A stretch of 51,201 nucleotides of DNA from contig JAFQGF010000047.1 of NCBI GenBank assembly GCA_017415555.1, positions 1-51,201 of the forward strand. Reading direction: 5' to 3'. Within the stretch, counting starts at the first letter, position 1, and every line of letters starts with the position of its first letter. The position numbers were made by a program, and so were the translations under genes. Below are positions 3,101-49,973 of this stretch, piece after piece. Origin of the DNA: Akkermansia sp. (GTDB lineage Bacteria > Verrucomicrobiota > Verrucomicrobiia > Verrucomicrobiales > Akkermansiaceae). Below the pieces are notes generated by a model. That model was not told the DNA's origin, did not search any database, and saw only the letters and a list, made by a program, of their open reading frames with translations.

Positions 3101-3394
3101 TCAGCTTTCTTCTTCCAGCTCTTCGCGCGAAAGAATATGTACCACCACCTTGACGCCTGCTTTTTCTCCCGCCGCTTTGGCAAGGGAGCGTATGGCAGAG
3201 GCTGTCATGCCGTTGCGGCCAATGATGCGGGGGATATCTCCCGGTTCCAGCACCAGACGGAAACGCAGCATATCCCCCTCTTCGCTGGAACCCACGCGTA
3301 GTTGCGCTTTGTCCGGATATTTAATGAGGGGGCTGACCACAGCCAGAAGGTACTTGCCTATGGATTCAATAATCTGTTGCATGGCGGCTGTCAT
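3101..3394 (-). CDS. khpA: KH-domain RNA-binding protein, KhpA family
   Basis: 97 residues from the ATG at 3394, or 93 from the ATG at 3382. It is a single KH domain with the RNA-contacting GxxG loop seen as IIGRNGMT, followed by the helix AIRSLAKAAGEKAG. KhpA proteins bind RNA, usually as a dimer with KhpB, and affect ribosome assembly or small-RNA function in other bacteria. Family alignment would favour the inner ATG, because homologues begin just before the first helix. The promoter position makes the outer ATG possible with a leader of only about 5 bases. It is the first gene of a khpA-priA unit. Confidence 0.85.
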   Translation of the reverse strand: MTAAMQQIIESIGKYLLAVVSPLIKYPDKAQLRVGSSEEGDMLRFRLVLEPGDIPRIIGRNGMTASAIRSLAKAAGEKAGVKVVVHILSREELEEES

Positions 3395-15459: not shown

Positions 15460-18135
15460 TCAGGAGAGTGCGGCCAGCATGGATTCCAGCTGAGCCTTCT
15501 TGTTTTCCCACTCGGTCAGGCGAGCGCGTTCCTGCTCCACCACGGCAGCCGGGGCGCGATCCACAAAGGAGGCGTTGCCCAACTTGGCATTGCTCTTGGC
15601 GATTTCCTTGGTGATTTTTTCCAGTTCCTTACCAATGCGGCTGCGCTCTGCTTCCACATCCACCAGACCTTCCAGCGGAAGGAAGAGCTCGCCGAAGGGG
15701 GTGAGTGCGGTGGGCGTACCCTTGGGGGCATCGTAAGCAGCATCCGGCGTGGCGCTCTTAGCTCCTGCCAGCAGAGCCAGACGAGCCATCAAATCATCGC
15801 TCAGCGGCAGGGTGGCGGGCTTCACCACGAAGCTCACGTTCTTGTTGGTGGCAAGGTTATACTCTGCCTTAAGGTTACGGGCTCGGTTGGCGGTCTCGTA
15901 CAGAGCCGTGGAGAGGGCGCGGGCTTTGGAGATGTCCGTATCGCTCAGGCCGGCCAGCAAACTCTGAGCCTGGGGCAGCGGGGTGCTCATGAGGGGCAGG
16001 CCGTTGTTGCGGGCGGCAAAACCCAGGCTCTGCCACAACTCCTCGGCAATGTGCGGCATGATGGGAGCCAACAGTGCCAGATAGTGGCGCAGCACAGTAT
16101 CGATGGTGTGGAGCGTGGCGTTTTTCACTGCGGGGTCACCACCACGCAGGTCGTTCTTGACTGCCTCCAGGAAGAGGGAGCAATATTCATTCCAGAAGAA
16201 GGAGTAGAGTGCCTGGGTGTAGGTGTTGAACTCATACTTGCTGAGAGCCTCTGCCACGGTGGCATGAAGTTCCTTGAGCTTGGCAAGGATGTCGATGTGT
16301 ACCGGTGCGAACTTGGGCGCCTCCGTTCCGGCCTCACCCTGCATCATGCGGAAGCGGGCTGCGTTGTAGAGTTTGTTGGCAAAATTCTTGCCTTCCTCAA
16401 TCTGTTTCTCGTCGAACTTAACGTCAGTGCCGGTGGGGGCAATACGCATAAGCCCGAAGCGAAGTCCGTCTGCGCCGTAGTGGGCAATAAGGTCGAGCGG
16501 GTCGGGGCTGTTGCCCAGACTCTTGCTCATCTTGCGGCCTTGCAGGTCGCGCACGATGGAAGTGAAGAATACATTGCCGAAGGGTTTCTTGCCGTCTGCA
16601 AAGCGGTAGCCGGCCATTATCATGCGTGCTACCCAGAAGAAGATGATGTCCGGGCCGGTCACCAGGTCGCTGGTGGGGTAGAACTTGGCGCGGCACTCAT
16701 CATCCATGGTGGCGAAAGGCCACAGCCAGCTGGAGAACCAGGTGTCCAGCGCGTCCTCATCCTGTACCCAATTCTCCGGGTCGGCCGGGGGCTCTACGCC
16801 CACATAGATGTCGCCGGCGGCGGCGTCTGCTTCGTCCAGCTTGGTAGCTTCCTGCAGCTCGGCTGCCTTCTCCTTGCGGTACCACACGGGGATGCGGTGC
16901 CCCCACCACAGCTGGCGGGAGATGCACCAGTCCTGAATACCTTCCAGCCAGTGTGCATAGGTCTTGGCCCAGTGAGCGGGGCGGAATACGATTTCGCCGT
17001 TAGCCACGGCATCCGCAGCTTCCTGCACACAGGGGTACTTCAGGAACCATTGCATGCTCAGGCGCGGCTCGATGGGTACATGGGAGCGCTCGCTCATGCC
17101 AACGTTATTCTCGTAGTCCTCTACCTTCTCCAGCAGCCCCTTGGCTTCGATGAGCTCAATAGACTTGTCGCGGGCCACAAAGCGCTCCAGCCCATGCAGC
17201 TCGGGGCAGTCGGGGCAGTTGATGTGACCATCCGCCGTGAGAATATCGATGATTTCCAGCCCGTGTTTCATGCCAACCTCAAAGTCCGTGCGGTCGTGAG
17301 CCGGGGTAATTTTGAGGGCACCGGTACCGAAGCCGATTTCCACGTGCTCATCGGCAATGATGGGGATTTCCGTCTCCACGAGCGGGCGGATAACGGTCTT
17401 GCCTATCAGGTGGCTGAAGCGCGGGTCGTTGGGGTTAACAGCCACGGCTACATCAGCCATGATTGTTTCCGGGCGGGTGGTGGATACCAGCAGCTGGCCA
17501 TTGCCGTCTGCCAGCTTGTAGCGGATGGTGTAAAGCTTGCTTCGGGAGGGCGTCATGATTACCTCCTCATCAGAAAGAGCCGTGCGGAGCACGGGATCCC
17601 AGTTCACCATGCGGCGTCCGCGGTAGATAAGCCCCTCCTTAAACAGCTCGGTGAACACGCGGGCTACCTCCGGGGCGTACACGTTGTCCATGGTGAAACG
17701 CTCGCGTTCCCAGTCGCAGGAGCAACCAAGGCGCTTGAGCTGATTGATGATGATGCCGCCGTGTTTATCTTTCCACTCCCACACCATCTTCATGAAGTCT
17801 TCTCGTCCCACATCATAGCGGGTGCGGGGGGGATTCTCCTTAGCCAGTTCTTTTTCCACTCGGGCCTGGGTGGCGATGCCGGCGTGGTCGGTGCCGGGCA
17901 GCCAGAGCACTTCTTTGCCCTCCTGGCGGGCACGGCGTACCAGAATGTCCTGAATCGTGTTGTTGAGCACATGGCCCATGTGCAGCACACCTGTCACATT
18001 GGGCGGGGGGATTACAATGCTGTATGCCGGCTTGTCGGAATGCGGGTCTGCGTGGAAGCAACCCTCTGACATCCAGCGGTTCTGCCATTTTTCTTCAACA
18101 ACGGTCGGTTCGTAAGCCTTGGGCAATTCAGTCAT
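15460..18135 (-). CDS. valS: valine--tRNA ligase
   Basis: 891 residues from the ATG at 18135; a longer in-frame start at 18174 would run into the promoter. This is a class I aminoacyl-tRNA synthetase that charges tRNA-Val. HIGH-type signature HMGH at 52-55 (in NVTGVLHMGHV), editing domain (CP1) at roughly 150-340, KMSKS at 535-539, anticodon-binding helical domain, and the C-terminal ValS coiled-coil arm at the end. The length and order are standard. The -10 box ends ten bases before the ATG, so the predicted leader is only a few bases. Two small genes follow closely. Confidence 0.98.
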   Translation of the reverse strand: MTELPKAYEPTVVEEKWQNRWMSEGCFHADPHSDKPAYSIVIPPPNVTGVLHMGHVLNNTIQDILVRRARQEGKEVLWLPGTDHAGIATQARVEKELAKENPPRTRYDVGREDFMKMVWEWKDKHGGIIINQLKRLGCSCDWERERFTMDNVYAPEVARVFTELFKEGLIYRGRRMVNWDPVLRTALSDEEVIMTPSRSKLYTIRYKLADGNGQLLVSTTRPETIMADVAVAVNPNDPRFSHLIGKTVIRPLVETEIPIIADEHVEIGFGTGALKITPAHDRTDFEVGMKHGLEIIDILTADGHINCPDCPELHGLERFVARDKSIELIEAKGLLEKVEDYENNVGMSERSHVPIEPRLSMQWFLKYPCVQEAADAVANGEIVFRPAHWAKTYAHWLEGIQDWCISRQLWWGHRIPVWYRKEKAAELQEATKLDEADAAAGDIYVGVEPPADPENWVQDEDALDTWFSSWLWPFATMDDECRAKFYPTSDLVTGPDIIFFWVARMIMAGYRFADGKKPFGNVFFTSIVRDLQGRKMSKSLGNSPDPLDLIAHYGADGLRFGLMRIAPTGTDVKFDEKQIEEGKNFANKLYNAARFRMMQGEAGTEAPKFAPVHIDILAKLKELHATVAEALSKYEFNTYTQALYSFFWNEYCSLFLEAVKNDLRGGDPAVKNATLHTIDTVLRHYLALLAPIMPHIAEELWQSLGFAARNNGLPLMSTPLPQAQSLLAGLSDTDISKARALSTALYETANRARNLKAEYNLATNKNVSFVVKPATLPLSDDLMARLALLAGAKSATPDAAYDAPKGTPTALTPFGELFLPLEGLVDVEAERSRIGKELEKITKEIAKSNAKLGNASFVDRAPAAVVEQERARLTEWENKKAQLESMLAALS

Positions 18136-19444: not shown

Positions 19445-20518
19445 ATGGATTACGCACCGCTGATAGAAAAACGCCGGGTACGCCTGGCCGAACTGGAGGC
19501 TGCCATTTCGGCACCGGATTTGTTTGACGACCGTTCCCGCGCAGAGGAAATTATGCGCGAGCACCGCCGTACCCAGGAATTGCTACACTGCTGGGAGGAG
19601 CTCTGCGCCGCTCTGCAGCACCGCGAGGAAGCAACGGAACTCTCTGCCGGCGAGGATGCAGAGATGGCTGAAATGGCGGCGTTGGAGCTGGAGGAACTCA
19701 CCCCCCGCATTGCTCGATTGGAAGAAACGGTGCAATACAGCCTGCTGCCTCGGGATGCCACGGAGGAGCGTGACGCGATTGTGGAAATACGCGCCGGTAC
19801 CGGTGGCGATGAGGCTGCCCTCTTTGCCGGTAATCTGCTGGGCATGTACCAGCGCTATGCAGAAAGCCGAGGCTGGCGTATGGAGGTGCTGGACGCCAGC
19901 CCTAACGACATCGGAGGCTTTAAGGAGGTGACCGCCCGTATCAGCGGAGAAGAGGTGTTCCGTTTCCTTAAATACGAGAGCGGGGTACACCGGGTACAGC
20001 GTGTGCCTGCCACGGAAACCCAAGGCCGCATTCATACTTCCACCGCCACGGTGGCCGTGCTGCCGGAGGCTGAGGAGGTGGACGTGGAAATCCGCCCGGA
20101 GGATTTGCGCATCGAGACCTGCCGGGCAGGTGGTGCCGGAGGCCAGCATGTGAACCGGACGGAATCTGCTGTGCAGATTTTCCACTTGCCCACGGGCATT
20201 ATGGTGCGCTGTGAGGATGGACGCTCCCAGCTCAAGAACAAGGAAACAGGGCTGCGTATTCTCCGCGCCCGCCTTTTCGAAATGAAGCAGCGCGAAGCTC
20301 AGCAGAACTATTCCGCCCAGCGCCGAGCTCTCATAGGCTCCGGTGGGCGTGAGGAAAAAATTCGTACCTACAACTTCCCCCAGAATCGACTTACCGACCA
20401 CCGCATAGGCTACACCGCCTATAATCTGGATATTGTGGTGAACAGTGGAGCACTGGATGACATCATCTCCCATATGCAGCATGCTGAAATGCAGGAGCGC
20501 ATGGATGAACTCAAATAA
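19445..20518 (+). CDS. prfA: peptide chain release factor 1
   Basis: 357 residues from the ATG at 19445; an in-frame ORF extension back to 19355 would cross the promoter and is not conserved. RF1 ends translation at UAA and UAG. The stop-codon recognition tripeptide is PAT at 188-190 (in RVPATETQGRIHTS), and the GGQ peptidyl-hydrolysis motif is at 232-234 (AGGAGGQHVNRT). N-terminal helical domain and C-terminal RF1 landmarks are intact. prmC, which methylates the GGQ glutamine, follows 11 bases later. Confidence 0.97.
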   Translation: MDYAPLIEKRRVRLAELEAAISAPDLFDDRSRAEEIMREHRRTQELLHCWEELCAALQHREEATELSAGEDAEMAEMAALELEELTPRIARLEETVQYSLLPRDATEERDAIVEIRAGTGGDEAALFAGNLLGMYQRYAESRGWRMEVLDASPNDIGGFKEVTARISGEEVFRFLKYESGVHRVQRVPATETQGRIHTSTATVAVLPEAEEVDVEIRPEDLRIETCRAGGAGGQHVNRTESAVQIFHLPTGIMVRCEDGRSQLKNKETGLRILRARLFEMKQREAQQNYSAQRRALIGSGGREEKIRTYNFPQNRLTDHRIGYTAYNLDIVVNSGALDDIISHMQHAEMQERMDELK

Positions 20519-33259: not shown

Positions 33260-33874
33260 TTACCTCACAAAGTGCGTCCAGGCACGGGGCTCATCGAGGG
33301 TGGGGTGAGCGGGTCCTTGCGCGATGCACTGCATGAGCCAGGCCAGGTTACGGCCGAGGTTGCGCATGGTCTGGCAGCCCTCCGGGTCCATTTGGACTTC
33401 ACCGGGGCGCATGCCGTAAATCATGTTCCAGTAGAAGGAGCTGACAAGCGGCTGGTTGTTGTAGGTGATGTATTTGTTGAGCCTGTCGAGTGTGGTGGAG
33501 GCGCCACCGCGACGAGCCACGGCGACGGTGGCGCCGGGCTTGTAGGCCAGCTTGCTGCCGGCGGAGTAATACAGGCGGTCGAGCAGGGCGCAGAGTGAGC
33601 CATTGGGGCCGGCAAAGTAGGTGGGGCTGCCGATGACGATGGCGTCAATCTCATCCAGCTTGTCGTAAATCGTGTTGTAGAGCTCATCCCCCATGCCGCA
33701 GCGGCCGGTTTTCAGGCAACGTCGGCAACCAATGCAGCCTTGCACGGCCTTGGTGCCAATCTGGATGATTTCCGCCTCCGCGCCGCCTGCACGAAGCCCC
33801 TCTGCTACCATGCTGAGTGCGTGAAATGTGTTGCCTGCGGCGTTCGGACTGCCATTGATGAGAAGAGCTTTCAT
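33260..33874 (-). CDS. flavodoxin-fold NAD(P)H-dependent FMN reductase family protein
   Basis: 204 residues from the ATG at 33874. The flavin phosphate loop is SPNAAGNTFHAL near residue 9, followed by a cysteine cluster GCIGCRRCLKTGRC at about 49-62, and the isoalloxazine-contact loop GSPTYFAGPNGSLCALLDR. The Cys pattern is common in flavodoxin-like FMN reductases and may hold an iron-sulfur cluster or be redox-active. It is cytoplasmic and probably reduces quinones, nitro compounds or metals; the substrate is not evident. It is divergent from the SNase gene and has its own promoter. Confidence 0.85.
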   Translation of the reverse strand: MKALLINGSPNAAGNTFHALSMVAEGLRAGGAEAEIIQIGTKAVQGCIGCRRCLKTGRCGMGDELYNTIYDKLDEIDAIVIGSPTYFAGPNGSLCALLDRLYYSAGSKLAYKPGATVAVARRGGASTTLDRLNKYITYNNQPLVSSFYWNMIYGMRPGEVQMDPEGCQTMRNLGRNLAWLMQCIAQGPAHPTLDEPRAWTHFVR

Positions 33875-36212: not shown

Positions 36213-37346
36213 TCAGTGTCCTTCTTCTGTTTCCTCGGGGGTGATAGGCTTACAATCCAGTGCCCTCCATGCCCAGGCGATGTAGGCCAGGACGAAGGGG
36301 ATGATGAAGGATACATAGGTCATGGTCCGCAGGGTGAAGAGGCTGGAGCTGCTGTTGGCGATAGTGAGCGAGCTTTGCAGTCCCACGCGGGAGGGGTAAT
36401 AGGCCGTGTTGTTCCACCCGGCGCAGAGCAGTAGAGCCAGCACCACCAGCACACTACCCGCACCCGCCGGCCAGATGGCACGCCGCCATCCCCGCAGCCC
36501 CATCACCATTCCGGTGAGCACCAGCACCACACCCACCAGCAGCAGTGCCAGTACAGCAGGCATGGCCAGCAGGTTGTGCAGGTATTTGTATTCCTCCATA
36601 TACACGTAGCCATCCTCCGGCAGTACGGCGTAGCCATAGCCGCACAGCCAACGCAGCAGCCAGGTGAGGAAGAAGAGCAGGAAGAAACCGCTTTCCATAC
36701 CCAGACGGCGGCGGCAGTTGCTACGCAGTGCTTCATCGCCGATGCTGTTCATGAAGTACAGGCAGGCGAGCACGCGGGTGAGCAGTAGCACGCTCATACC
36801 CAGCAGGAGATTCTGCGGCACAAAGGCCGCCTCCAACCCATGCAGCGGGTTGACCCAGTGGGAGATGACAGGCATGGCCGTGTTGGTAACTGCCGCTTTG
36901 TCCACCACAAACTCAGCTCCCGTAAAGAAGGTGCCCACAGCGGTGCCGATGAGTAAGGGACCCAATATGCCGTTGAGCAGCAGGAAGATGCGGTAGGTGG
37001 TGGTACCTAGCACGTTGCCGTTTCTGAGCTGGAATTCGTAGGAGACGGCCTGCACCACAAAGCAGAGCAGAATGAGCACCCACACCCAGTAGGCTCCGCC
37101 GAAGCTCGTGCTGTAGAACAGAGGGAAGGAGGCAAAAAATGCTCCGCCGAAGGTGACGAGCGTGGTGAAGGTAAGCTCCCACTTGCGGCCTGTGGCCAGC
37201 AGCAGCATGCGGCGCTGCTCTTCAGTGCGCCCCAGTGTCCAGATGAGGGATTGCCCGCCCTGCACGAACATAAGGAAAACCAGCAGGGCGCCCAGCAGGG
37301 ATACGAGGAACCACCAGTAGTGTTGCAGTAATGAGATGTCGTTCAT
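36213..37346 (-). CDS. cydB: cytochrome d ubiquinol oxidase subunit II
   Basis: 377 residues with eight or nine predicted membrane segments, standard for CydB. It pairs with CydA to form cytochrome bd, an inner-membrane quinol oxidase with very high oxygen affinity. The N-terminal WWFLVSLLGALLVFLMFVQGGQSL segment is typical. It follows cydA by three bases. In an anaerobic fermenter this oxidase removes traces of oxygen and can support growth at nanomolar oxygen. Confidence 0.95.
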   Translation of the reverse strand: MNDISLLQHYWWFLVSLLGALLVFLMFVQGGQSLIWTLGRTEEQRRMLLLATGRKWELTFTTLVTFGGAFFASFPLFYSTSFGGAYWVWVLILLCFVVQAVSYEFQLRNGNVLGTTTYRIFLLLNGILGPLLIGTAVGTFFTGAEFVVDKAAVTNTAMPVISHWVNPLHGLEAAFVPQNLLLGMSVLLLTRVLACLYFMNSIGDEALRSNCRRRLGMESGFFLLFFLTWLLRWLCGYGYAVLPEDGYVYMEEYKYLHNLLAMPAVLALLLVGVVLVLTGMVMGLRGWRRAIWPAGAGSVLVVLALLLCAGWNNTAYYPSRVGLQSSLTIANSSSSLFTLRTMTYVSFIIPFVLAYIAWAWRALDCKPITPEETEEGH

Positions 37347-37349
37347 GGC

Positions 37350-38906
37350 TTATGCTGTGGGGTTATCGGTTTCGGGGCCGGCGGCGATGGCTTTTGTCAT
37401 GATGCTCAGCTCCGCTACCAGCAGCAGGGTGAAGAGCACAAGGAAGATGAAGAAGGTCGTCTGCACGGAGCTGACATCCAGGCGTGAAATGGCCGCAACA
37501 TTCGGCAGCAGCCCTTGGATGGCCCAGGGCTGGCGTCCTACCTCGGCCACCACCCAGCCCGCCTGGCTGGCTACCCAGGCCAGCGGTATCGTCAGCACCA
37601 CCACCCATAGCGCCCATTTCCACTGTGTCCAGCGCGGTAGCCACTTGCAGGCAATCAGCAGCCCTGCAAACAGCGCAATGAAGTAGCCGCCCAGTATGAC
37701 CATGATGCGGAAGCTGTAGAAGGTAAGCGGCACGCTGGGAACCAGTTCCGCAGGGTTGCTCAGGTAGCCGTAGCCGAAGTAGGCAAAATTGTCCCGCAGC
37801 TCGGCCAGCGCGGCGGATTTTGCCGATTCATCCTTGGCCTTGCGGTAGGCGGCCAGGGCGGCTATGGCCTTGCGCCCGCGCGCCATTTTTTCCTCGGCGG
37901 GCAGGGCGGTGCTGCCATCGGGCAGGGGATAGCCGCCCTCCAGCAGGTTACGGATGCCCGGCACATAGCCGTCCGTTTCGTGCGTGGCCAGCAGGGAGAG
38001 CGCGTAGGGCATTTCGATATGGAAGAGGAACTTACTCTGCTCGCTCGGCGCGGCCCAGTCGGCACCCGGGCGCAGCAGGCCGCCCAGCACAAGCCCCTGT
38101 TCGCGGCCGCCTTCATAAAGCCCCTCGGCGGCAGCGAGTTTCATGGGTTGGTATTGGGCGATGTCGCGCCCGCTTTGGTGGCCGGTGTGGGCGGTGATGA
38201 GGGCAGCCGCCAACCCGAACCATGCGGCTACCTTGATGCTGGCCAGCGCAAACTCGCGGTGCCGGCCGCGCAGCAGGTACCAGCAACTTACGCCCACTGC
38301 AAACACGGCGCCCAATACCCACGAGCTCGACACCGTGTGGCAGAACTTCACCACAGCCACGGGCGAGAACGCCACTGCCGCAAAATCCACCATCTCATTG
38401 CGTACTGTATCGGGGTTGAACTCCATGCCCACGGGGTGTTGCATCCAGGCGTTGGCTACCAGAATCCACCACGCCGAGAGCGTGGCGCCAATGATGGTGA
38501 GCCAAGTGGAGGCCAGGTGCGCGCGCTTGCTCACCTTATTCCACCCGAAGTACATGACGGCGATGAACGTACTCTCCATAAAGAAAGCCACAATGCCCTC
38601 GATGGCGAGCGGTGCACCGAAGATATCGCCCACAAACCAGCTGTAGTTGCTCCAGTTGGTGCCGAACTCGAACTCCAGGATGATGCCTGTGGCTACACCC
38701 ATGGCGAAGTTGATGCCGAAGAGCTTCATCCAGAAGCGCGCTGTCTGCTTCCAGAACTCGCGCCCCGTGCGCACATACAGAGTTTCCATAATGGCCATGA
38801 TGACGCCCAGCCCCAGTGTGAGCGGTACAAAAAGCCAGTGGTACATGGCCGTGAGCGCAAACTGCGCACGCGACCAATCAACGAGTGTGGTATCAATCGG
38901 TTCCAT
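37350..38906 (-). CDS. cydA: cytochrome d ubiquinol oxidase subunit I
   Basis: 518 residues. CydA carries the three hemes (b558, b595, d) and the quinol site. Family landmarks are WSRAQFALTAMYHWLFVPLTLGL at the N-terminus (first heme histidine in the MYHW segment), the GRQPW motif at 457-461, and a periplasmic Q-loop region with a charged segment around 280-380 (EEKMARGRKAIAAL). Its ATG lies inside the end of the DUF4492 gene (14-base overlap), so the two are translationally coupled; cydB follows at once. Confidence 0.97.
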   Translation of the reverse strand: MEPIDTTLVDWSRAQFALTAMYHWLFVPLTLGLGVIMAIMETLYVRTGREFWKQTARFWMKLFGINFAMGVATGIILEFEFGTNWSNYSWFVGDIFGAPLAIEGIVAFFMESTFIAVMYFGWNKVSKRAHLASTWLTIIGATLSAWWILVANAWMQHPVGMEFNPDTVRNEMVDFAAVAFSPVAVVKFCHTVSSSWVLGAVFAVGVSCWYLLRGRHREFALASIKVAAWFGLAAALITAHTGHQSGRDIAQYQPMKLAAAEGLYEGGREQGLVLGGLLRPGADWAAPSEQSKFLFHIEMPYALSLLATHETDGYVPGIRNLLEGGYPLPDGSTALPAEEKMARGRKAIAALAAYRKAKDESAKSAALAELRDNFAYFGYGYLSNPAELVPSVPLTFYSFRIMVILGGYFIALFAGLLIACKWLPRWTQWKWALWVVVLTIPLAWVASQAGWVVAEVGRQPWAIQGLLPNVAAISRLDVSSVQTTFFIFLVLFTLLLVAELSIMTKAIAAGPETDNPTA

Positions 38907-39120
38907 GGTGTGTTTCTGTTGTGGCGCGGTCTGTCAGCTCGGTGGCAACACTTGCCTCCTTCTCGCTCTCATCCCCTTGCAGGTATGCCGGGAAGAAAAA
39001 TGCCTTCAGTACCGCAAACATAATGAAAAGTTTAAGCAGAATAATGCCCCAGAGCGTGCGCCCCAGCGTCATGCTGCGGAACCCTTCCAGATAAAATCTC
39101 ACAATTCTGCCGATAAGCAT
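38893..39120 (-). CDS. DUF4492 small membrane protein upstream of cydA
   Basis: 75 residues. The N-terminal 45 residues match the DUF4492 pattern: a basic amphipathic start, FRSMTLGRTLWGIILLKLFIMFAVLKAFFFP with one membrane helix, then a polar tail. DUF4492 genes commonly sit beside cydAB in Bacteroidota and relatives, which suggests a small accessory subunit or assembly factor similar in role to CydX, though that is inference. It overlaps cydA by 14 bases and is the first gene of the operon. Its promoter ends six bases before the ATG, predicting a leaderless message. Confidence 0.85.
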   Translation of the reverse strand: MLIGRIVRFYLEGFRSMTLGRTLWGIILLKLFIMFAVLKAFFFPAYLQGDESEKEASVATELTDRATTETHHGTD

Positions 39121-39126: not shown

Positions 39127-39154
39127 ATCATAGCTTTTTTACGCCCGATGGCAA
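39127..39154 (-). promoter_or_regulatory. promoter of the cyd operon, leaderless arrangement
   Basis: On the minus strand TTGCCA (39154-39149) and TATGAT (39132-39127) are 16 bases apart, and only six bases separate the -10 from the DUF4492 ATG. Confidence 0.65.
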
Positions 39155-39265: not shown

Positions 39266-39293
39266 TTGACATGCGGTGGGGCTGTGCTATAGT
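39266..39293 (+). promoter_or_regulatory. promoter overlapping an apparent leaderless GTG start
   Basis: TTGACA (39266-39271) and TATAGT (39288-39293) are 16 bases apart, close to perfect consensus. Transcription would start about at 39300, the first base of the GTG codon. Confidence 0.75.
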
Positions 39294-39299
39294 GTGTGC

Positions 39300-40055
39300 G
39301 TGGATTCGGATATCGAGCTTTACCTGTTTTATGATGATGATTTTCCGCTGGCACTGCCACCGCCCTACGATGAAGTTGAGGTAGAGGCTTGCAGTGCCTG
39401 CTTGGGGTATTGTGAAGATATGGAGGCGTTGAACTGCGAGCTTGCGCGTGCCGGGCGAGTGCTGGAGCAGGTGCAGGGGCAAGGGCTTGTGCTGAGTGTG
39501 TATCGTTGGGAACGCCTGGCTGTTGCGGATGATACGGCGGTGCGCCTGAGCCCAGCGTTGCTGCGGCAGATGCAGGCGCGCGGGTGTGGCCTGGACTATT
39601 CGTTTTATGTTAGCCATCCTCGAAAATCGAGATTCCGCGAGGTCACAAGCTTTTTCATGCTCTCTTTTCCTGCCGGCGGGGCTCTCGCCGGGGTGCCGGA
39701 GAATATACCGTGGCTATTTGCCGGCGAGTACCGCAGAGAGCGCTTTGTGCTGACTCCCTTTACTTCGGTGCTGGCAGACTACCTGGCCTGTCTTGCTAAG
39801 CAGGGGGACTCATTGCCCGCGCTGAGAATCGATTATTTTTCGGAGGGCTCCCTCGTCATTTGGTATATGACGGCTGAGGACGAAATCCGCTCACTGGGCT
39901 CCCTCGGCTGCAATGTCGAACTTCGCGTTCATCCTGCCATGCTTCTGCCGAAGGGCGATGCGCTCGCTCCGCTGTTCCGCTACCTCATGCGCAGCGCCGT
40001 CTGGCGCGAGCGCCTTACCCTCCCTCCCGGCTATGCCGAGGTGGAGGAAAATTGA
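39300..40055 (+). CDS. hypothetical protein with a likely leaderless mRNA
   Basis: 251 residues from the GTG at 39300, chosen because the near-consensus promoter ends six bases earlier; the longer frame from a GTG at 39276 would lie inside the promoter. No signal peptide or membrane segment is evident, and the protein is acidic at the N-terminus (YDDDFP, YDEVEVEACSACLGYCED). No domain is recognised. Three cysteines cluster early. The composition is GC-rich and similar to neighbours, so there is no sign of recent transfer. It is divergent from the cyd operon and followed by a repeat element. Confidence 0.75.
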   Translation: MDSDIELYLFYDDDFPLALPPPYDEVEVEACSACLGYCEDMEALNCELARAGRVLEQVQGQGLVLSVYRWERLAVADDTAVRLSPALLRQMQARGCGLDYSFYVSHPRKSRFREVTSFFMLSFPAGGALAGVPENIPWLFAGEYRRERFVLTPFTSVLADYLACLAKQGDSLPALRIDYFSEGSLVIWYMTAEDEIRSLGSLGCNVELRVHPAMLLPKGDALAPLFRYLMRSAVWRERLTLPPGYAEVEEN

Positions 40056-40070
40056 CGCCTTTTCGGAAAC

Positions 40071-40122
40071 TCCCTTGGGTTTTTGCAACACTAAGCGCAA
40101 AAAGTCCCTTGGGTTTTTGCAA
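40071..40122. repeat. 18-bp direct repeat, period 34
   Basis: TCCCTTGGGTTTTTGCAA occurs at 40071-40088 and again, identical, at 40105-40122, just downstream of the stop at 40055. Two copies only. It may be a regulatory site, a recombination scar or a relic of an insertion. Confidence 0.7.
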
Positions 40123-40162
40123 ATTGCTATTGACAACGCGTTGGAATAATTAGGAAAACCGC

Positions 40163-40510
40163 CAATTTGGCGAACTGACATGCGAGCCTTCAGGCGAGCC
40201 ATATTAAGAGCCTCGCCGCATGGCGAGGCGGCATAAAATAGCCACGGGTGGAGTGAGCAACGCGAACGAAACCCGTGGGAAAGGCAAAAAAACAAAGAGA
40301 ACCCCACCGGATGGTGGGGTGGCACAAAGCAATGCTACATATTGAAGCCTAGGCATTATGCCACCCCTCCTTTCGTCGGGGTTCGTATTGATTTTTTGCG
40401 TTATTCCCACGGTTCCGCCGCTATCGCGGCTTTACCGTGGGCTATCATATGCCGCCTCGCCATGCGGCGAGGCTCACAAATTCCGCTCGCTTTGCTCTGT
40501 CGAATTCCCT
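40163..40510. mobile_element. non-coding palindromic element, copy 2
   Basis: The gene-free stretch 40056-40534 holds this second copy. Its left end (about 40163-40245) matches the copy-1 right end inverted, including GGCGAACTGACATGCGAGCC. The interior shares with copy 1 the GGAGTGAGCAACGCGAACGA segment and the CCCCACCGGATGGTGGGG hairpin. The right end keeps GCCGCCTCGCC but then diverges, so this copy looks partly decayed. Boundaries are approximate. Confidence 0.75.
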
Positions 40511-40534
40511 GCTCCCGACATCATTCCAATGCGC

Positions 40535-42763
40535 TTACAGGAAGGGGTTTGATTCCTGGCTTACATAGCCGGTATTCGGGGTTGTCGGCTTTCTGGGGGG
40601 TGGGGCAACCCCGGAAGGCAATGGAGCTGGTAGTTCTTCGGCCCCGATGAGCAAGCGCAGGATTTCCCGGTGAGACTTGGCCTTATCACTGCTTTTGAGG
40701 CAATCTGCTGCGAATTGTGCGGCTGTTTTGCCAGCCGGGTATGTGTCGGCACAAGGGTGGGTGCCATCTGAGCCCATGCTGAGAAGGTAGCGCACCATGT
40801 CCACATTTGCCCCGTAAATGCAACGCCGCCAGATGACGCTTAGTTGCCGGGTGGAAAGGCTGTTGAAGGGGACACCCAGGCGGCAGAGGGTGCGGGCTGC
40901 TTCCACATGTCCGTTCTCGAGTGCCAGATAGAGCGGGCTGCGTCCTTGTTTGTCGGTATCCGTCAGGGAGACTCCTTTTTCTGCCAGACGATTCAGGATG
41001 GCTGTGTGGCCATGTTGGGCGGCATAATGCACAGCCGTGCTCATTTCTTTTGGGGTGGATGAGAGAGAGAGTAGTCGTTCAAATACACTGTATTCTCCCC
41101 ATATTGCGGCATGCTCCAGGGTAGTCTTGTTCATGCTGGAGCCGTTTGCTCCGGCGCCGTAATCCATCAGCAGATGGGCTATCTCACGATTCTGTGCTCT
41201 TACGGCATCGGCAAGGGCATCGGCACCGTGACGGGGAATATCCGCACCTGATTCTATGAGGATTCGAATTGTGCTGGTGTGCTCTTTCCCGGTAGCGGTT
41301 TTCAGGGCAAGTCCGTTGTAGAAGTTGACATCCCCACCCTGCGAAATCAGGAAGCGTACCATGGCGTCATTGCCGTGAAATGCGGCCGTCCCCAGCAGCC
41401 TGTTAACAGTAGTATTCTCATTATCGCTGGGGCCGTAGTGGGGCAGCAGCCAGGTGTATATCTCCGGTGTGGAGTAGGCAGCAGCGGTCTCCGGAAGGCT
41501 TTCCGAGGGATAGGCCATTTCCCGGGGATTGGCTCCGGCCGCCAGCAGAAGCTCTGCGATGTCCTGCCGATTCCGGCTGACGGCCAGATGCAGCGGGGGC
41601 AGTTGTTGGTCAAAGATACCCTTTTTCCGGGGGCCTCTGTTCGGGTTGGCTCCCAGTTCCAGCAGAAGTTTTGCAGCCTCGTAGTGGCCGCCTTCTATGG
41701 CGTAATGCAGGGCGGTGGCACCGCTGGTGGCTATGGCTGTGGCGTCGGCTCCTTGTGCTGCCAGGTGGCGTATCAGCTCACAGTGCCCTCCCATGGCGGC
41801 ATACATGAGCATCGTTTCTTTATGGCAGTTAGCATCGGCCTCTATTCCACCCTTGCTGACAATAAGCCTGTAGAGCCGCAAGTTGCCTTGGTAGGCAGCA
41901 GCCATGAGGGCTGTAGTGCCCGACTTGGAGCGCAAGGTGACATCTGCTCCTGCGTGGATGAGCTTTTCTGCCATGCTGAGGCGTCCGTTCACGATGCTGC
42001 GTATCAGGGCACTCCGCCCGTCATCTCCCACGGCATTGATGTTTGCCCCGGCGGCCAGCAGGAGGTCCACAATGTCTGAAAACCCACGCTCAGCCGCTGC
42101 CATGAGAACGGGGCCTTTCTTTGTTTTTTTGCCAAAGCCCGGTGCCGGGAATTTTCCCCGGGCGTTTGCCGGGGCTCCGGCAGCCAGAAGCTGCCGTACG
42201 TAGTCGGCACGTCCGGCAAGTGTCGCTTTCAGGATGGCATTGCTGTTGGGGGGTGTTCCTTTCTCCAGCAGGAGGTTCACCATCTCATCATGCCTTCCCA
42301 TGATGGCATGTACCAGGGCTTCGCTATCCGGCTTTGCTCCGGCTGCCAGCAGAAGCCGGGCGCATTTGGTGTGACCTCCCATCACAGCGTATAAAAGAGG
42401 GGAGATGCCTTTGCCTGGCTCGGTTTTTGCCCCGGCGTTCAAAAGGCTTTCCACGATATCGACCCGGCCGAAACGCGAGGCAATTTGCAGGGCTGTTTGT
42501 TGCTGCCGACTGAGCAGCTCTGCCGGCACTCCGGCCTGAATGCAACGGAGCGCCAGGGGAAGGTCACCTTTATTCAGAGCCTCGTGGCATACCTGAGAAA
42601 GGCGTTTCAGCTCTTGTTCCCGGGCTATGCGTTGCTCTTCGGCAATAACCTGTTGGTAGTGGCGTAAAATAGCTGCTCTTCCTTGCTGTAGAATGTCTTG
42701 TTGTGGTGTGGCCTGGGCGGTGGAGAAGGCTGCCAGAAGCGGTAGAAAGCGTGAGGAAAACAT
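40535..42763 (-). CDS. large secreted ankyrin-repeat protein
   Basis: 742 residues from the ATG at 42763. A signal peptide is likely (MFSSRFLPLLAAFSTAQA), followed by a Gln/Arg-rich helix (about 30-60). Most of the rest consists of ankyrin repeats (roughly 15-18), many containing LLLAAGA and ending in Pro-rich sequence (LPSGVAPPPRKPTTP). The chosen start is six bases after the -10 box; a longer in-frame ATG at 42832 lies upstream of the promoter and is rejected. It is not a lipoprotein, unlike the other ankyrin protein at 29608-31536. The binding partner is unknown. Confidence 0.85.
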   Translation of the reverse strand: MFSSRFLPLLAAFSTAQATPQQDILQQGRAAILRHYQQVIAEEQRIAREQELKRLSQVCHEALNKGDLPLALRCIQAGVPAELLSRQQQTALQIASRFGRVDIVESLLNAGAKTEPGKGISPLLYAVMGGHTKCARLLLAAGAKPDSEALVHAIMGRHDEMVNLLLEKGTPPNSNAILKATLAGRADYVRQLLAAGAPANARGKFPAPGFGKKTKKGPVLMAAAERGFSDIVDLLLAAGANINAVGDDGRSALIRSIVNGRLSMAEKLIHAGADVTLRSKSGTTALMAAAYQGNLRLYRLIVSKGGIEADANCHKETMLMYAAMGGHCELIRHLAAQGADATAIATSGATALHYAIEGGHYEAAKLLLELGANPNRGPRKKGIFDQQLPPLHLAVSRNRQDIAELLLAAGANPREMAYPSESLPETAAAYSTPEIYTWLLPHYGPSDNENTTVNRLLGTAAFHGNDAMVRFLISQGGDVNFYNGLALKTATGKEHTSTIRILIESGADIPRHGADALADAVRAQNREIAHLLMDYGAGANGSSMNKTTLEHAAIWGEYSVFERLLSLSSTPKEMSTAVHYAAQHGHTAILNRLAEKGVSLTDTDKQGRSPLYLALENGHVEAARTLCRLGVPFNSLSTRQLSVIWRRCIYGANVDMVRYLLSMGSDGTHPCADTYPAGKTAAQFAADCLKSSDKAKSHREILRLLIGAEELPAPLPSGVAPPPRKPTTPNTGYVSQESNPFL

Positions 42764-42769
42764 GCCCGT

Positions 42770-42798
42770 AGCATAGCACTGCCGCATTCGCCCGTCAA
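42770..42798 (-). promoter_or_regulatory. promoter of the large ankyrin gene, leaderless arrangement
   Basis: On the minus strand TTGACG (42798-42793) and TATGCT (42775-42770) are 17 bases apart; six bases separate the -10 from the ATG at 42763. Confidence 0.7.
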
Positions 42799-42816
42799 GG
42801 CATATTTTGCCGGCAG

Positions 42817-42851
42817 AAGAGAAAGCCCCCACCTAACGAACAGGCGGGGGC
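42817..42851 (-). terminator. rho-independent terminator of the pur operon
   Basis: GCCCCCGCCT (42851-42842 on the minus strand) pairs with AGGTGGGGGC (42834-42825), with one G-T wobble and a 7-base loop, followed by a T-rich tract. It lies 27 bases after the purQ stop. Confidence 0.85.
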
Positions 42852-42878
42852 CAAGGGAAATCGGTGCAAGTGCGCGAC

Positions 42879-43586
42879 TTACTTCAGAGCATCGAAGGCG
42901 CCCTTGAAGAAGTAGTAGCCCCAGCCCCAATCGGGGTCGCCGGACCAATCGGGGTCGTAGTGGTGGCGGGGCTTCAGGAAGCGCTCCGGGTGGGGCATGA
43001 GGCCCATGGCGCGGCCGGTGGGGTCCTGCAGGCCTGCGATGCGCAGCTCGGAGCCGTTGTGGTTGTCAGCGTACTGCAGGGCAACGCAGCCGTTCTCGAG
43101 GTACTTCTGGGCGTCGCCGGGTTCGCAGACGAGGCGGCCTTCCGCGTGGGCGGAGGGGAGCTCGAAGTTCTCGGGCAGGTAGGTGGTGAAGGGGCAGTTC
43201 GGAGCCACCTTCACGAGCTTGTCCCACATGCACTCAAAGCGCTCGCTCTTGTTCCAGATGAGGGAAGCCTTGGGCAGGATGCCCAGCTTGGTCAGAATCT
43301 GGAAGCCGTTGCAGATGCCGAAGAGGAAGCCGCCGTTGGCGTGGTGCTTCTGCAGGGCATCGCCCAGGAAGCGCTCTGTCTCCAGCTGAGCCAGACGACC
43401 GCTCATCACATAGTCGCCATAGGAGAAGCCGCCGGAGAATACAACGAGCTGAGCCTTGGCCACATGCTGGGGCGTAGCCGTGGCAATGGGCTGCACCTGG
43501 GTGGTGAAACCGGCGGCGCGCAGGGCGCGCTCGGTCTCCACGTCGCAGTTGGTGCCGGGGTATTTGAGAAGTAATGCGTGAGGCAT
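42879..43586 (-). CDS. purQ: phosphoribosylformylglycinamidine synthase, glutaminase subunit
   Basis: 235 residues, class I glutamine amidotransferase. The catalytic Cys is Cys92 in FGICNGFQ, with the His/Glu of LMPHPERF near residue 205. It supplies ammonia to PurL through PurS in de novo purine synthesis. It is the last gene of a purC-purS-purL-purQ run; the gap before it (38 bases) contains short ACGAATT-type repeats. The C-terminus DWGWGYYFFKGAFDALK is typical of the group that uses the small PurL. Confidence 0.96.
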   Translation of the reverse strand: MPHALLLKYPGTNCDVETERALRAAGFTTQVQPIATATPQHVAKAQLVVFSGGFSYGDYVMSGRLAQLETERFLGDALQKHHANGGFLFGICNGFQILTKLGILPKASLIWNKSERFECMWDKLVKVAPNCPFTTYLPENFELPSAHAEGRLVCEPGDAQKYLENGCVALQYADNHNGSELRIAGLQDPTGRAMGLMPHPERFLKPRHHYDPDWSGDPDWGWGYYFFKGAFDALK

Positions 43587-43624
43587 AGTAAAATTACGAG
43601 TTAAGAGTTACGAATTACGTGTTA
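43587..43624. repeat. short TTACGAATT-type repeat in the purL-purQ gap
   Basis: The gap contains ATTACGAGTTAA and GTTACGAATTACG, near-copies of one another in tandem. Similar TACGAA/ATTCGT sequences occur in the pflB leader (24727-24738), at both edges of the pflB-pflA element and in the gap before purL (about 46021-46045), so this looks like a dispersed short intergenic repeat. Confidence 0.5.
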
Positions 43625-46018
43625 TTAATAGAAGGGCGTTAATCCGTTCTTCCAGATGCTCTTCAGCTCGGCCACCTCTGCCTGCAGGACGGTGCTGCCC
43701 TTGGCGGTGATAGTGAGCTTGCCGTCGGTGGTGGCGGAGCCGATGCGGGCGCAGGGGGTGCCGGCCATGGCGGCGGCAAAGTCATCTGCCAGGTCCTCAT
43801 CCACCTCCACCAGGAAGCGACCGGTGCTTTCTGCGAAGCAGGGCACGGCGTTGTTCTGCCAGCCACCCACGGTGGGCAGCTTGTCGAGGTCGATGCAGAT
43901 GCCGCCCTTGCCGGAGAAAGCCATCTCGGCTGCGGCTACGGCCAGACCACCTTCGGATAGGTCGTGGGCGGAGAGCACCAGCCCCTGGGTGAGTGCCTTG
44001 CTGTAGTACTGCTTGTACACCTCGAAGTTAGCGGTGCAGTCTGTCTGGGGTACCTTGCAGTCCTTCACGCCCTTAATGCGGGCGTAGACGGAGGCTCCCA
44101 TCTCGTCCTCGGTGTTGCCAACAATGAAGACGGCGCTGTTGTTGCGGCGCAGGCTGGCGCCACGCACATGCTCAGGCTCTTCCACCACACCGAAGCCGGA
44201 GCAGAGGAAGGTGACGGGGATGTTCACGGGGCCGTCCTCGGTCTCAAAGTAGTTGTAGAAGCTGTCCTTGCCGGATACATAGGGTGCACCGTATGCCAGA
44301 GCGGCGGTGCGGATGCCCTTGGCGCACTCCACGATGCGCCCCAGCTCGCTGGGGCATTCCGGGTTGCCCATGCAGAAGTTGTCCAGCAGGGCAATCTTCT
44401 CGGGGTTGGTGCCGGCCAGTACCAGCTGGCGCACAGTCTCATCCACCGTTCCGGTGCCCATGGCGTAGGGGTCGGTCTTACCCCACTCGGGCAGAATGGC
44501 CAGAGCGAGGGACATGAGCTTGTCGGAGCCATCGATGTCGATGACGGAGGCATCCTGCGGGGCGTCGGCGGAGGCTCCGGCGAGGGGCTTCAGCACGGTA
44601 TTGCCTTGCACCTCGTGGTCGTACTCGCGGATGATGGGCTCGCGGGAAACGATGGCGAAGTCGCCGAATACCTGCTTGAGGTCGGCGGTCAGGTTGCTGT
44701 CGTCCAGAGCCACTCCCTGCATGGCAGGACAGGGGGTGAAGGTGGAGGTGAGGTACTTGGTGGGAGCATCGTGCAACTTGGAGTTGTCCATCTCCACCAC
44801 CAGCTCACCATTGTGCCATACACGCAGCACGCCGCTGTCATTGGATTCACCCAGTACGGTCATTTCCGTCTGGAATGTGTTGGCCAGGTTCTGTAGCTCG
44901 TCTAGGTTTTCGGGCTTCACTGCCAGCACCATGCGCTCCTGAGACTCAGAGAGGAAAATCTGCCATGAGAGCATGCCGGTTTCCTTGAGCGGGGCGCGCT
45001 CCAAGTACAGGTTGCCGCCTGTCTCGGAAAGCATTTCACCTGCGGCGGAGGAGAAACCACCAGCGCCGCAGTCGGTCACGAACTCGATGAGGCCGCGCTC
45101 GCGGGCTTCCAGAATGACGTCGAGCGTCTTCTTCTCTTCAATGGGGTTACCAATCTGCACAGCCTGCTGGTCCTCGGTGGCGGATTCCTCGCCCATGGCG
45201 GCGGAGGAGAAGGTGGCACCGTGGAGACCGTCTTTACCGGTGCGGCCGCCAATGACAACTACGGCCAGTCCGGGTTTCATTTCTTTGGCTATGTCCTTCT
45301 GGGGAATCACGCCTGCCGTGCCGCAGAATACGAGCGGGTTGTAAATGTAGGTCGGGTCGAACTGAATGGCACCGCTGGTGGTGGGGATACCCATACGGTT
45401 GCCGTAGTCGCGCACGCCGTGTACCACGCCGCGCATAATGCCCAGGGGGTGAATGATGTTGTGGCCTTCCACCATGCTCTGCGGGGTATCGGGGGCGCCG
45501 AAGCAGAAGACGTCCAGGTTAGCGATGGGCTTGGCACCCTTGCCGGCACCCAGAATGTCGCGAATCACGCCGCCGAGGCCGGTGTTGGCTCCGGCGTAGG
45601 GCTCGATGGCGCTGGGGTGATTGTGTGTCTCGGCCTTCAGGCAGACGGAGAGCTCGTCGTCCAGCTTAATGAAGCCGGCATTGTCCACAAAGCAGCTGAG
45701 CACAAAACCCGGCTTCTGCGCCATAATCTCCTTGGACGGGCGCTGAATGAAGGTCTTGTACATGCTGTTAATCTCCTCCGTCTCACCATTCACGGTATGC
45801 TGAATGGTGGCGGCAAAGATGCGGTGTTTGCAGTGCTCGGACCAGGTCTGGGCGATTACCTCCAGTTCCACGTCGGTGGGCTCGCGGTCAATCTCGTTGA
45901 AAATCTGCTGCACGACCAGCATATCCTCCGTGGAGAGGGAAAGCTTCATGTCCTGGCTCAGCTTGGTCAGCTCTGCCTCGCTCAGGTTACGAACAGGTAT
46001 GTGTCGGTATGTTGCCAT
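43625..46018 (-). CDS. purL: phosphoribosylformylglycinamidine synthase subunit, small-type PurL
   Basis: 797 residues, the small PurL that needs separate PurS and PurQ partners, a little longer than the usual ~730. It catalyses ATP-dependent conversion of FGAR to FGAM. Landmarks are TWSEHCKHR near residue 78-86, AETHNHPSAIEPYAGANTG, GGRTGKDGLHGATFSS and the C-terminal ALTQGLVLSAHDLSEGGLA. The purS-like gene lies 31 bases upstream and purQ 38 bases downstream. Confidence 0.96.
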   Translation of the reverse strand: MATYRHIPVRNLSEAELTKLSQDMKLSLSTEDMLVVQQIFNEIDREPTDVELEVIAQTWSEHCKHRIFAATIQHTVNGETEEINSMYKTFIQRPSKEIMAQKPGFVLSCFVDNAGFIKLDDELSVCLKAETHNHPSAIEPYAGANTGLGGVIRDILGAGKGAKPIANLDVFCFGAPDTPQSMVEGHNIIHPLGIMRGVVHGVRDYGNRMGIPTTSGAIQFDPTYIYNPLVFCGTAGVIPQKDIAKEMKPGLAVVVIGGRTGKDGLHGATFSSAAMGEESATEDQQAVQIGNPIEEKKTLDVILEARERGLIEFVTDCGAGGFSSAAGEMLSETGGNLYLERAPLKETGMLSWQIFLSESQERMVLAVKPENLDELQNLANTFQTEMTVLGESNDSGVLRVWHNGELVVEMDNSKLHDAPTKYLTSTFTPCPAMQGVALDDSNLTADLKQVFGDFAIVSREPIIREYDHEVQGNTVLKPLAGASADAPQDASVIDIDGSDKLMSLALAILPEWGKTDPYAMGTGTVDETVRQLVLAGTNPEKIALLDNFCMGNPECPSELGRIVECAKGIRTAALAYGAPYVSGKDSFYNYFETEDGPVNIPVTFLCSGFGVVEEPEHVRGASLRRNNSAVFIVGNTEDEMGASVYARIKGVKDCKVPQTDCTANFEVYKQYYSKALTQGLVLSAHDLSEGGLAVAAAEMAFSGKGGICIDLDKLPTVGGWQNNAVPCFAESTGRFLVEVDEDLADDFAAAMAGTPCARIGSATTDGKLTITAKGSTVLQAEVAELKSIWKNGLTPFY

Positions 46019-46049
46019 AATCTATACTTCGTAATTTGTAGTTAGTCCC

Positions 46050-46499
46050 TTATTTGACGCTCCAGGTGTGGATGGCGGGGTTGCATACATCGTTGCAGAA
46101 GCGGGCGGCGAGTGCCTCCTTGTCGCCATTGCCGAAGATGTATATCTTCTGCGTGATAGTGAGGGCAGAGATGCTGAAGGCCAGCCCCTTGCGGCCGGAA
46201 TAGTTGGTCAGGATAGCTTCCTTCTCCAGATCCAGAGCACCTTTCTTAATGCCATAGGAGATGCAGAAGAGCTCGCCTTCCAGCGCGGGTGTTCCGCCTT
46301 CCTCAACCTTCTGGGAGATGGGGTCTACCAGCACGCGGCGCATATAGTCCGCGGCTGCTTCGATGTCGCCCTCGCACTCTACGGTGTAAAGACGGGTGTG
46401 GTTGTAGGTCAGCGCATCGCTGATGGGGGTGTAGAGCAGCTTGTTCGCGTCTGTAGCGGACTGGAAGCGGCTGAATACCTCAAATGTAAGTGTTGCCAT
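46050..46499 (-). CDS. purS: PurS-like protein with two tandem PurS-type domains
   Basis: 149 residues from the ATG at 46499; typical PurS has about 80-90. Two halves each show the PurS pattern of a beta-strand, a helix and a (D/N)P-I turn: RLYTVECEGDIEAAADYMRRV...DPIS at about 36-65, and KIYIFGNGDKEALAARFCNDVCNPAI at about 118-144. PurS normally works as a dimer that bridges PurQ and PurL; here the dimer seems to be covalently fused, as in the N-terminal domain of large single-chain PurL. The position, purC upstream and purL downstream, supports the call. The similarity is by eye and remote. Confidence 0.7.
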   Translation of the reverse strand: MATLTFEVFSRFQSATDANKLLYTPISDALTYNHTRLYTVECEGDIEAAADYMRRVLVDPISQKVEEGGTPALEGELFCISYGIKKGALDLEKEAILTNYSGRKGLAFSISALTITQKIYIFGNGDKEALAARFCNDVCNPAIHTWSVK

Positions 46500-46554
46500 A
46501 AAGTTGAAAAGGGCCACCGCACAGTGTCGCACGGTGGCCGTAAATGATTCTGTG

Positions 46555-47259: not shown

Positions 47260-47298
47260 GATATTATCTGCGAGGGGTTGTGATTACACCTCACCCCC

Positions 47299-47326
47299 AA
47301 TATACCTGAACAGGAAGCTTTGTCAA
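47299..47326 (-). promoter_or_regulatory. promoter of the pur operon
   Basis: On the minus strand TTGACA (47326-47321) and TATATT (47304-47299) are 16 bases apart; leader about 33 bases. Confidence 0.75.
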
Positions 47327-47451
47327 GCCTAAAAACCAGATTCGCAGAGCCGGAATGTAGATTCATTCAACTTTCCGTTTTATCCCTCATGCATTGATTT
47401 GGGGTGATTATGGCAATGCCGGATAAAAACAGCTGCTGTATTGAAAATGGG

Positions 47452-47479
47452 TTGCAAAAAATGGGGGATTGTGTAAATT
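47452..47479 (+). promoter_or_regulatory. promoter of the sigma-factor operon
   Basis: TTGCAA (47452-47457) and TAAATT (47474-47479) are 16 bases apart; the -10 ends nine bases before the ATG at 47489. A GGAAG between them could act as a weak Shine-Dalgarno if the message has any leader. Confidence 0.5.
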
Positions 47480-47488
47480 GGAAGCGGT

Positions 47489-48028
47489 ATGGGGAACAGG
47501 CAGAAAATCGCAGAACAATGCATCGGCTGGTTTCAGCAGGAGCATGCCCGCCTGTTGGCCTACCTTTCCACCTGTATGCCGGGGGTGGAGGACTCCGAGC
47601 TGCTGCTGACGCTCACATCTCAGCGAGTCCTCCGCGCAGTGGAGCACGGTCTCCTGTCAGCGGATGCGGATACCCTGACGCGCTACACCATGCGCCTCCT
47701 ATACCGCGCGGCCGGCAATGCTCTGCGGGAACAGTCCCGCCGCCACGCACGCGAGGCGCAATACTGCCGCGAACTGTACGCTGATGGGCTTGTGCCCCAC
47801 ATGCTCCGGGAGGATGCAGACGATTCGCAGCTGGCTGTTCGCCGTGCTGTGCTCTGCCTCCCGCAGGAGCAGAGCCAGCTCATCATTCTCCATCTCTGGC
47901 AGGAACTCACGTTCAGCCAGATTGCCTCCGTTCTGCATCTCCCGCTTTCCACGGTGAAAAGCCGCTACCGGGTCGCTATCCAACGCCTGGAACAAATCCT
48001 GAAACCTCACTTCGATATTCCATCATGA
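47489..48028 (+). CDS. ECF-type RNA polymerase sigma factor
   Basis: 179 residues. Region 2 is weakly conserved (about 20-95, with TRYTMRLLYRAAGNALREQSR), while region 4 is clear: LPQEQSQLIILHLWQELTFSQIASVLHLPLSTVKSRYRVAIQRL, a helix-turn-helix that reads the -35 element. No extra C-terminal domain. The next gene overlaps by four bases (ATGA) and encodes a single-span membrane protein, the usual anti-sigma arrangement; a PDZ protein follows in the same way. The promoter regulated by this factor is not known. Confidence 0.85.
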   Translation: MGNRQKIAEQCIGWFQQEHARLLAYLSTCMPGVEDSELLLTLTSQRVLRAVEHGLLSADADTLTRYTMRLLYRAAGNALREQSRRHAREAQYCRELYADGLVPHMLREDADDSQLAVRRAVLCLPQEQSQLIILHLWQELTFSQIASVLHLPLSTVKSRYRVAIQRLEQILKPHFDIPS

Positions 48029-49969: not shown

Positions 49970-49973
49970 TTAT

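Follow-up and report, generated by a model that had tools for sequence, protein, structure and literature searches.

Promoters and start codons at the locus

The window analysed here, the whole 51,201-nt stretch of contig JAFQGF010000047.1 (assembly GCA_017415555.1), contains three genes with exactly six bases between the end of the putative promoter's -10 box and the start codon. The genome to which it belongs (2.02 Mb in 65 contigs, 79% complete) and the congeners compared with it are probably Akkermansia, as judged from CydA, whose best relatives in named genomes come from Akkermansia sp. metagenome-assembled genomes (MAGs) from roe deer (85% protein identity) and sheep rectum (83%) and from an Akkermansiaceae MAG (83%). 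The DNA identity of named Akkermansia loci to the genus stretches compared is only ~85% at best. Throughout, "gap" denotes the number of bases between the end of the -10 box and the start codon. The three promoter-start units, read directly from the sequence, and the genes they precede are as follows.

39266..39293, + strand: promoter TTGACA-N16-TATAGT of gene 39300 (-35 box 39266-39271, -10 box 39288-39293, start 39300)
39300..40055, + strand: gene 39300, uncharacterised protein of 251 amino acids, GTG start, gap 6
39127..39154, - strand: promoter TTGCCA-N16-TATGAT of DUF4492-cydAB (-35 box 39154-39149, -10 box 39132-39127, start 39120)
38902..39120, - strand: DUF4492 protein (PF14899), ATG start, gap 6, upstream of cydAB
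37350-38906, - strand: cydA (PF01654)
36213-37346, - strand: cydB (PF02322)
42770..42798, - strand: promoter TTGACG-N17-TATGCT of the ankyrin gene (-35 box 42798-42793, -10 box 42775-42770, start 42763)
40535..42763, - strand: ankyrin-repeat protein (PF12796), ATG start, gap 6

The sequence-only reading that drew attention to this geometry had claimed a six-base distance in three genes, and all three read exactly so. The DUF4492-cyd operon and gene 39300, whose protein has no Pfam match at E 0.001, are divergent and have one common intergenic region of 179 bp. A Shine-Dalgarno (SD) motif in a leader, 5-12 nt ahead of the start, is absent from the three genes, which have only a six-base stretch between the -10 box and the start.

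With sigma-70, transcription usually begins at the seventh base after the -10 box. A transcription start site (TSS) at this distance would place +1 on or beside the start codon at gaps 6-7. We propose, with a probability of roughly 0.87, that standard sigma-70-type promoters abut start codons, and that the resulting mRNAs are predicted to be leaderless at gaps 6-7 and to carry leaders of 2-5 nt at gaps 8-11.

Distance profiles, conserved starts and orthologues

The distance between -10 box and start was profiled without a gene finder in 1,371 kb, consisting of 727 kb of the window's own genome and 377 kb and 267 kb of the congeners G088 and G227. The own-genome sample was rule-based and comprised the window and at most the first 20 kb of each of contigs C1-C45 (for C7, to 13.7 kb only); 15 of 20 stretches that had originally been picked for containing pattern matches were excluded from every count. 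With two-box sites scoring at least 9/12 (858 sites; the looser cut-off was 8/12), ATGs opening at least 70 codons numbered 5, 2, 2, 5, 4 and 2 at gaps 0-5, below the background of 5.69 per gap, and 35, 23, 12, 24, 14, 7, 15 and 10 at gaps 6-13. This amounts to 6.1-fold over background at gap 6, where the count of 35 includes the window's own DUF4492 and ankyrin genes, 4.0-fold at gap 7 and 4.2-fold at gap 9. A sharp lower edge at gap 6 would be expected because, with the TSS fixed 7 nt after the -10 box, a nearer codon is not wholly transcribed. The excess at distance 6 on which the sequence-only reading had staked its claim is present, and the sharp peak that it predicted is borne out in the position of the maximum and of the sharp lower edge; the excess is wider than predicted, as it is also found at gaps 7 and 9-10.

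The excess at gaps 6-7 differed between codons, being 5.1-fold for ATG, 2.4-fold for GTG, 1.2-fold for TTG and none for CTG (3.3-fold, 1.5-fold, 1.3-fold and none at the looser score), as expected of leaderless mRNAs, which begin with AUG or GUG (purine at +1) rather than UUG. In 250 kb of E. coli, no ATG opening 70 codons was present at gaps 6-7, either in 112 sites (~0.8 expected) or in 509 looser sites (~4 expected). Genome G026, from another family, gave only 56 sites with two ATGs at gap 6, which is too few to judge. Eight of ten gap 6-7 genes compared with Pfam had a match, and their functions are mixed, including an HlyD-type protein, Bax1-I, an AMP-binding enzyme, quinolinate phosphoribosyltransferase and a sulfatase. 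Our own codon-usage gene finder called only 481 genes in the 727 kb and was kept solely for neighbour calling in the operon test described below; the TANNNT profile obtained with it showed a broad rise over gaps 6-11 that stayed within the shuffled maximum.

Starts were also called blind to promoters, as the codon where protein conservation begins. Reciprocal best hits among four genus samples (the own genome, G004, G088 and G227) yielded 320 pairs, of which 150 were left after removal of shadow frames, two of them lacking an aligned start, and the 258 starts with 60 nt upstream were searched for promoters scoring at least 8/12. A two-box promoter was found at gap 6-10 of 32 of the 258 starts and at gaps 0-5 of two; the counts at gaps 6 to 10 were 13, 8, 2, 6 and 4, one start having two promoters. 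The comparison with shuffled upstream sequences that the sequence-only reading had called for came out clearly in its favour: in 200 dinucleotide shuffles of the 258 upstream regions, the mean was 2.1 and the maximum 7. Because orthologues are not independent, the figure for the own genome alone, 12/97 vs a shuffled mean of 0.9 and a maximum of 6, is the safer one. By operon position, near promoters preceded 22 of 161 first genes, 1 of 46 internal genes and 9 of 48 unclassified genes (3/258, with <100 nt, were dropped), which is the operon-first placement expected of leaderless genes, although the neighbours were called with a gene finder that misses genes.

The 32 near-promoter starts consist of 30 ATG, two GTG and no TTG codons, and 30 are preceded by a pyrimidine. 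The pyrimidine at -1 was considered as merely the YR (pyrimidine-purine) rule of transcription; this was discarded as a complete explanation, since operon-internal starts have one too (40/46). Purines at -3 are frequent before starts of the own genome and its congeners, which is partly accounted for by codon bias; a Kozak-like R(-3)/Y(-1) arrangement was rejected as a separate signal, being not clearly distinct from this bias (in-frame internal ATGs 35-41% vs starts 46-55%).

SD-like 4-mers preceded 25 of the 258 conserved starts vs 29 of 258 in a control window, that is, without excess, and only one of the 32 near-leaderless starts had such a 4-mer. The same count in E. coli gave 25/42 before starts vs 2/42 in the control (42 of 48 coding sequences). 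In G004 and G017, each with three copies, every 16S rRNA has an intact 3' end, GGATCACCTCCTTT, with the anti-SD CCTCC; reading of the anti-SD covered these two genomes and G035 only, and the 16S search found none in the contigs of the own genome (G000), G001, G002, G024 and G026. Loss of bS21 was rejected as a candidate explanation, bS21 being present in 8/8 genomes.

The six-base geometry is a genus-wide signal. In the own genome, the pattern TTGNCN-N15..18-TATNNT-N6-RTG has 23 matches and the reversed pattern 4. The 23 include one duplicate: contig C48 repeats positions 42783-51201 of the window at 99.99% identity, as either a redundant assembly contig or a very recent duplication. A stricter pattern, TTGAC...TATNNT-gap-ATG, was counted at gaps 6-7, 4-5 and 20-21, the order in which triplets of counts are given from here on. 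It gave 14 / 1 / 4 in the own genome, with the ankyrin promoter counted twice through the duplicate, and 195 / 41 / 61 in 20 congeners among the 240 Verrucomicrobiota genomes searched, in which the reversed-pattern control had 15 matches at gap 6-7.

Orthologues preserve the arrangement. Gene 39300 had matches in 7 of the 75 other genus genomes searched, and the boxes were read by eye at the four loci in which the N-terminus aligned at 56% identity or more. Locus L230 (in G227) has TTGACA, a spacer of 16, TATGAT and gap 6, with ATG replacing GTG; L231 and L237 have gap 7 and an ATG at the aligned place; and in L232, with gap 6, start and promoter have shifted together two codons upstream. Left out of this comparison were L235 and L236 (no N-terminal match), L233 (a C-terminal fragment) and L234, which has 35% identity and, six bases ahead of an upstream ATG, GATACT rather than TAnnnT. 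The DUF4492 gene has gap 6 in L230, L003, L001 (at a GTG) and L002. A search of 76 genomes found the ankyrin gene in one other, G022, where the -35 box, the -10 box and the six-base stretch are identical and the spacer carries four changes.

Proposed initiation and competing explanations

If transcription starts at the start codon, the promoter would double as a translation-initiation signal for roughly a tenth of the genes of the genus. By analogy with other leaderless mRNAs, a 5'-terminal AUG or GUG may be taken directly by the ribosome with initiator tRNA, and genes at gaps 8-11 probably follow the same route.

The same geometry would arise if the true start were further downstream, in which case transcription would begin at the codon beside the promoter and the mRNA would have an ordinary leader. 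The starts are predicted from sequence and some frames offer alternatives, such as the GTG at 39276 upstream of 39300. We nevertheless consider this explanation improbable: 73% of the ATGs at gap 6-7 open at least 70 codons, vs 37% at gaps 25-60, and the promoter-blind starts yield the same peak. The start of gene 39300 is an ATG at the aligned place in three orthologues and is displaced together with its promoter in the fourth, the DUF4492 alignments within the genus begin at residue 1, and SD-like motifs show no enrichment ahead of conserved starts. Slightly less probable again is the view that the -10 boxes are incidental and that a second, upstream promoter gives a normal leader. Several promoters per gene are common, and L231 has a TATAAT ~40 nt upstream of the start, possibly another promoter, but incidental boxes would not yield an excess at gaps 6-7 over gaps 4-5 and 20-21, and boxes and spacing recur in orthologues. 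Chance is the least credible of these explanations and, for the class as a whole, highly improbable. AT-rich -10-like hexamers are frequent upstream of genes, a single box is weak evidence, and the TANNNT profile made with our poor gene finder remained within the shuffled maximum; against this stand the 32 conserved starts that exceed every shuffle, the reversed-pattern control in the congeners and the E. coli sample without any ATG at gaps 6-7. The geometry of a single gene could still be coincidence; it is for the class that the shuffles speak against chance.

Several observations, among them the TATAAT in L231, weigh against the proposal that these mRNAs are leaderless or nearly so. The distance profile has a dip at gap 8 and a peak at gap 9, both strongest in the own genome (15, 10, 5 and 16 at gaps 6-9). 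It should be noted that G088 and G227 were selected for richness in the gap 6-7 pattern; in G004, which was not so selected, the excess is weaker, 2.7-fold at gap 6-7 from 5 ATGs, with 6 / 4 / 2 pattern matches in its whole genome. Two of the 20 congeners, G131 (7 / 2 / 7) and G147 (4 / 1 / 5), have no excess over gap 20-21. Among 142 pairs with both starts readable, a near promoter was present on at least one side in 28 and on both sides in only 7 (~2 expected) at the strict score. Two of six DUF4492 homologues in the genus (L004 and L006) have gap 8, and in L002 the geometry is kept while the frame has a stop at codon 5, pointing to a pseudogene, a sequencing error or another start.

Predicted near-leaderless genes, relatives and earlier reports

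Five further genes of the window have longer gaps.

15460..18135, - strand: valS, -10 box TATACT, gap 10 to ATG
19445..20518, + strand: prfA, TAGAAT, gap 11 to ATG
3101..3394, - strand: khpA, TTGACA-N17-TAATAT, gap 11
47489..48028, + strand: sigma-70 region 4 protein (PF08281), weak TAAATT, gap 9
33260..33874, - strand: FMN reductase-like protein (PF03358, domain match from residue 1), weak TAAGCT, gap 8

The gaps of 8 to 11 that the sequence-only reading had reported for these genes are confirmed, and they lie outside the gap 6-7 of strictly leaderless mRNAs; the genes are better termed near-leaderless, as they would have leaders of ~2-5 nt. Two of the five promoters are weak (47489 and 33874, the latter with 3/6 matches in each box). 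For valS, the upstream regions of the 30 closest loci among 76 genomes, own included, were compared. The best-scoring box is at gap 8-10 in 29 of the 30, two of these scoring only 7/12 and one (L267) tying with a box at gap 22; the exception, L276, has its best box at gap 15 and a weaker one at gap 10. The block between the -10 box and the ATG, often CGCGCGTC, is G+C-rich and strongly conserved in the 30 genomes read (L253-L282), and such a G+C-rich block after the -10 box recalls stringently controlled promoters.

A DUF4492 homologue is present at 76 of 80 loci of CydA relatives. In all five genus homologues compared, a two-box promoter precedes a candidate DUF4492 start at gap 6-10, unlike in those from other organisms, mostly Bacteroidota, where this was rare (6/71, with 128 candidate starts). 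Five of these six promoters stand before TTG or GTG codons, and the sixth before an ATG situated 11 codons upstream. At the Bacteroidota loci, true leaders and TAnnTTTG-like elements, the Bacteroidota promoter motif, can be seen by eye. The nearest relatives of DUF4492-cydAB (36213-39120) outside the genus are in Bacteroidota, with CydA identities of up to 67%, and 69% in L019, and one Puniceicoccales locus has 61% (L039); horizontal transfer of the operon is possible on these identities.

The stricter pattern was searched in the same way at the three gap classes in the same 240 Verrucomicrobiota genomes. Outside the genus, the counts were 3 / 2 / 2 for three genomes of the same family, 17 / 11 / 6 for six from one other family in the order, 62 / 30 / 34 for 49 from the class and 1307 / 782 / 746 for 161 from other classes. 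Families carrying an excess are f24 (94 / 17 / 14), f35 (81 / 14 / 30), f27 (27 / 4 / 6), f48 (24 / 2 / 6) and f57 (14 / 1 / 0), and there is none in f23 (95 / 104 / 80), f34 (45 / 47 / 36), f36 (17 / 24 / 14) and f56 (10 / 22 / 17). This suggests that the same geometry occurs in some other families of the phylum; the counts are a lead only, many families being represented by one or two genomes and the counts having been made without gene models.

Taken together, these observations permit a wider view that we put forward tentatively and with more doubt than belief: the Akkermansia promoter may have replaced the SD as the start-site signal, SD use having gone despite the intact anti-SD; about a tenth of the genes would be leaderless or near-leaderless, including valS genus-wide; a Bacteroidota-like cyd operon would have a leaderless promoter; and the geometry would have been gained in several other families of the Verrucomicrobiota.

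Leaderless transcription is already known in the genus, and our finding extends a known kind of initiation through Akkermansia. Cappable-seq of A. muciniphila placed 10% of TSSs at annotated start codons, with 886 high-confidence positions (PMC4782308). According to the accessible text of that report, these TSSs have a YR start motif together with -35 and TATAAT-like elements, as in our case and probably in the same genus; they were measured in a mouse-gut species, with one percentage given, whereas here leaderless transcription is predicted from the sequence of another species and traced across congeners and orthologues. In our literature searches this report was the sole experimental one of leaderless transcripts in Verrucomicrobiota. 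The accessible part of a 2011 computational survey names no Verrucomicrobia among the groups with leaderless genes (PMC3160421), which fits the sequence-only remark that such mRNAs are little described in the phylum; the Cappable-seq figure for A. muciniphila goes against that remark. The Actinobacteria and Deinococcus-Thermus of that survey resemble our genus in having a -10 box (TANNNT/TATAAT, the TA-like signal) at the start codon without SD in a substantial minority of genes (~20% and ~40% there). Unlike those positive groups, from which Verrucomicrobia are absent, this genus has no SD excess at conserved starts. As for the anti-SD, the available text of a 2024 survey describes Akkermansia as SD-scarce with conserved CCUCC (PMC10783764), which agrees with our reading: as in SD-scarce Bacteroidota, the 16S rRNA retains CCUCC and SD:anti-SD interactions are few (4% in A. 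glycaniphila). Points that we have not met in print are the genus-wide spread, the footprints in orthologues, the near-leaderless valS and the counts for other families.

Among gut bacteria, Akkermansia is much studied. Should roughly a tenth of its genes be leaderless or near-leaderless, with no signal carried by the SD, SD-based expression constructs and start annotation would mislead, and gene starts could be called anew from promoter position. The intact anti-SD beside no detectable SD use makes the initiation of leadered and operon-internal genes testable.

Two minor observations concern the DNA between gene 39300 and the ankyrin gene. The sequence TCCCTTGGGTTTTTGCAA is present twice at ~40069-40122, and the inverted-repeat arms CCTCGCC/GGCGAGG, CCACGGG/CCCGTGG and CCCCACC/GGTGGGG were seen by eye at 40160-40480.

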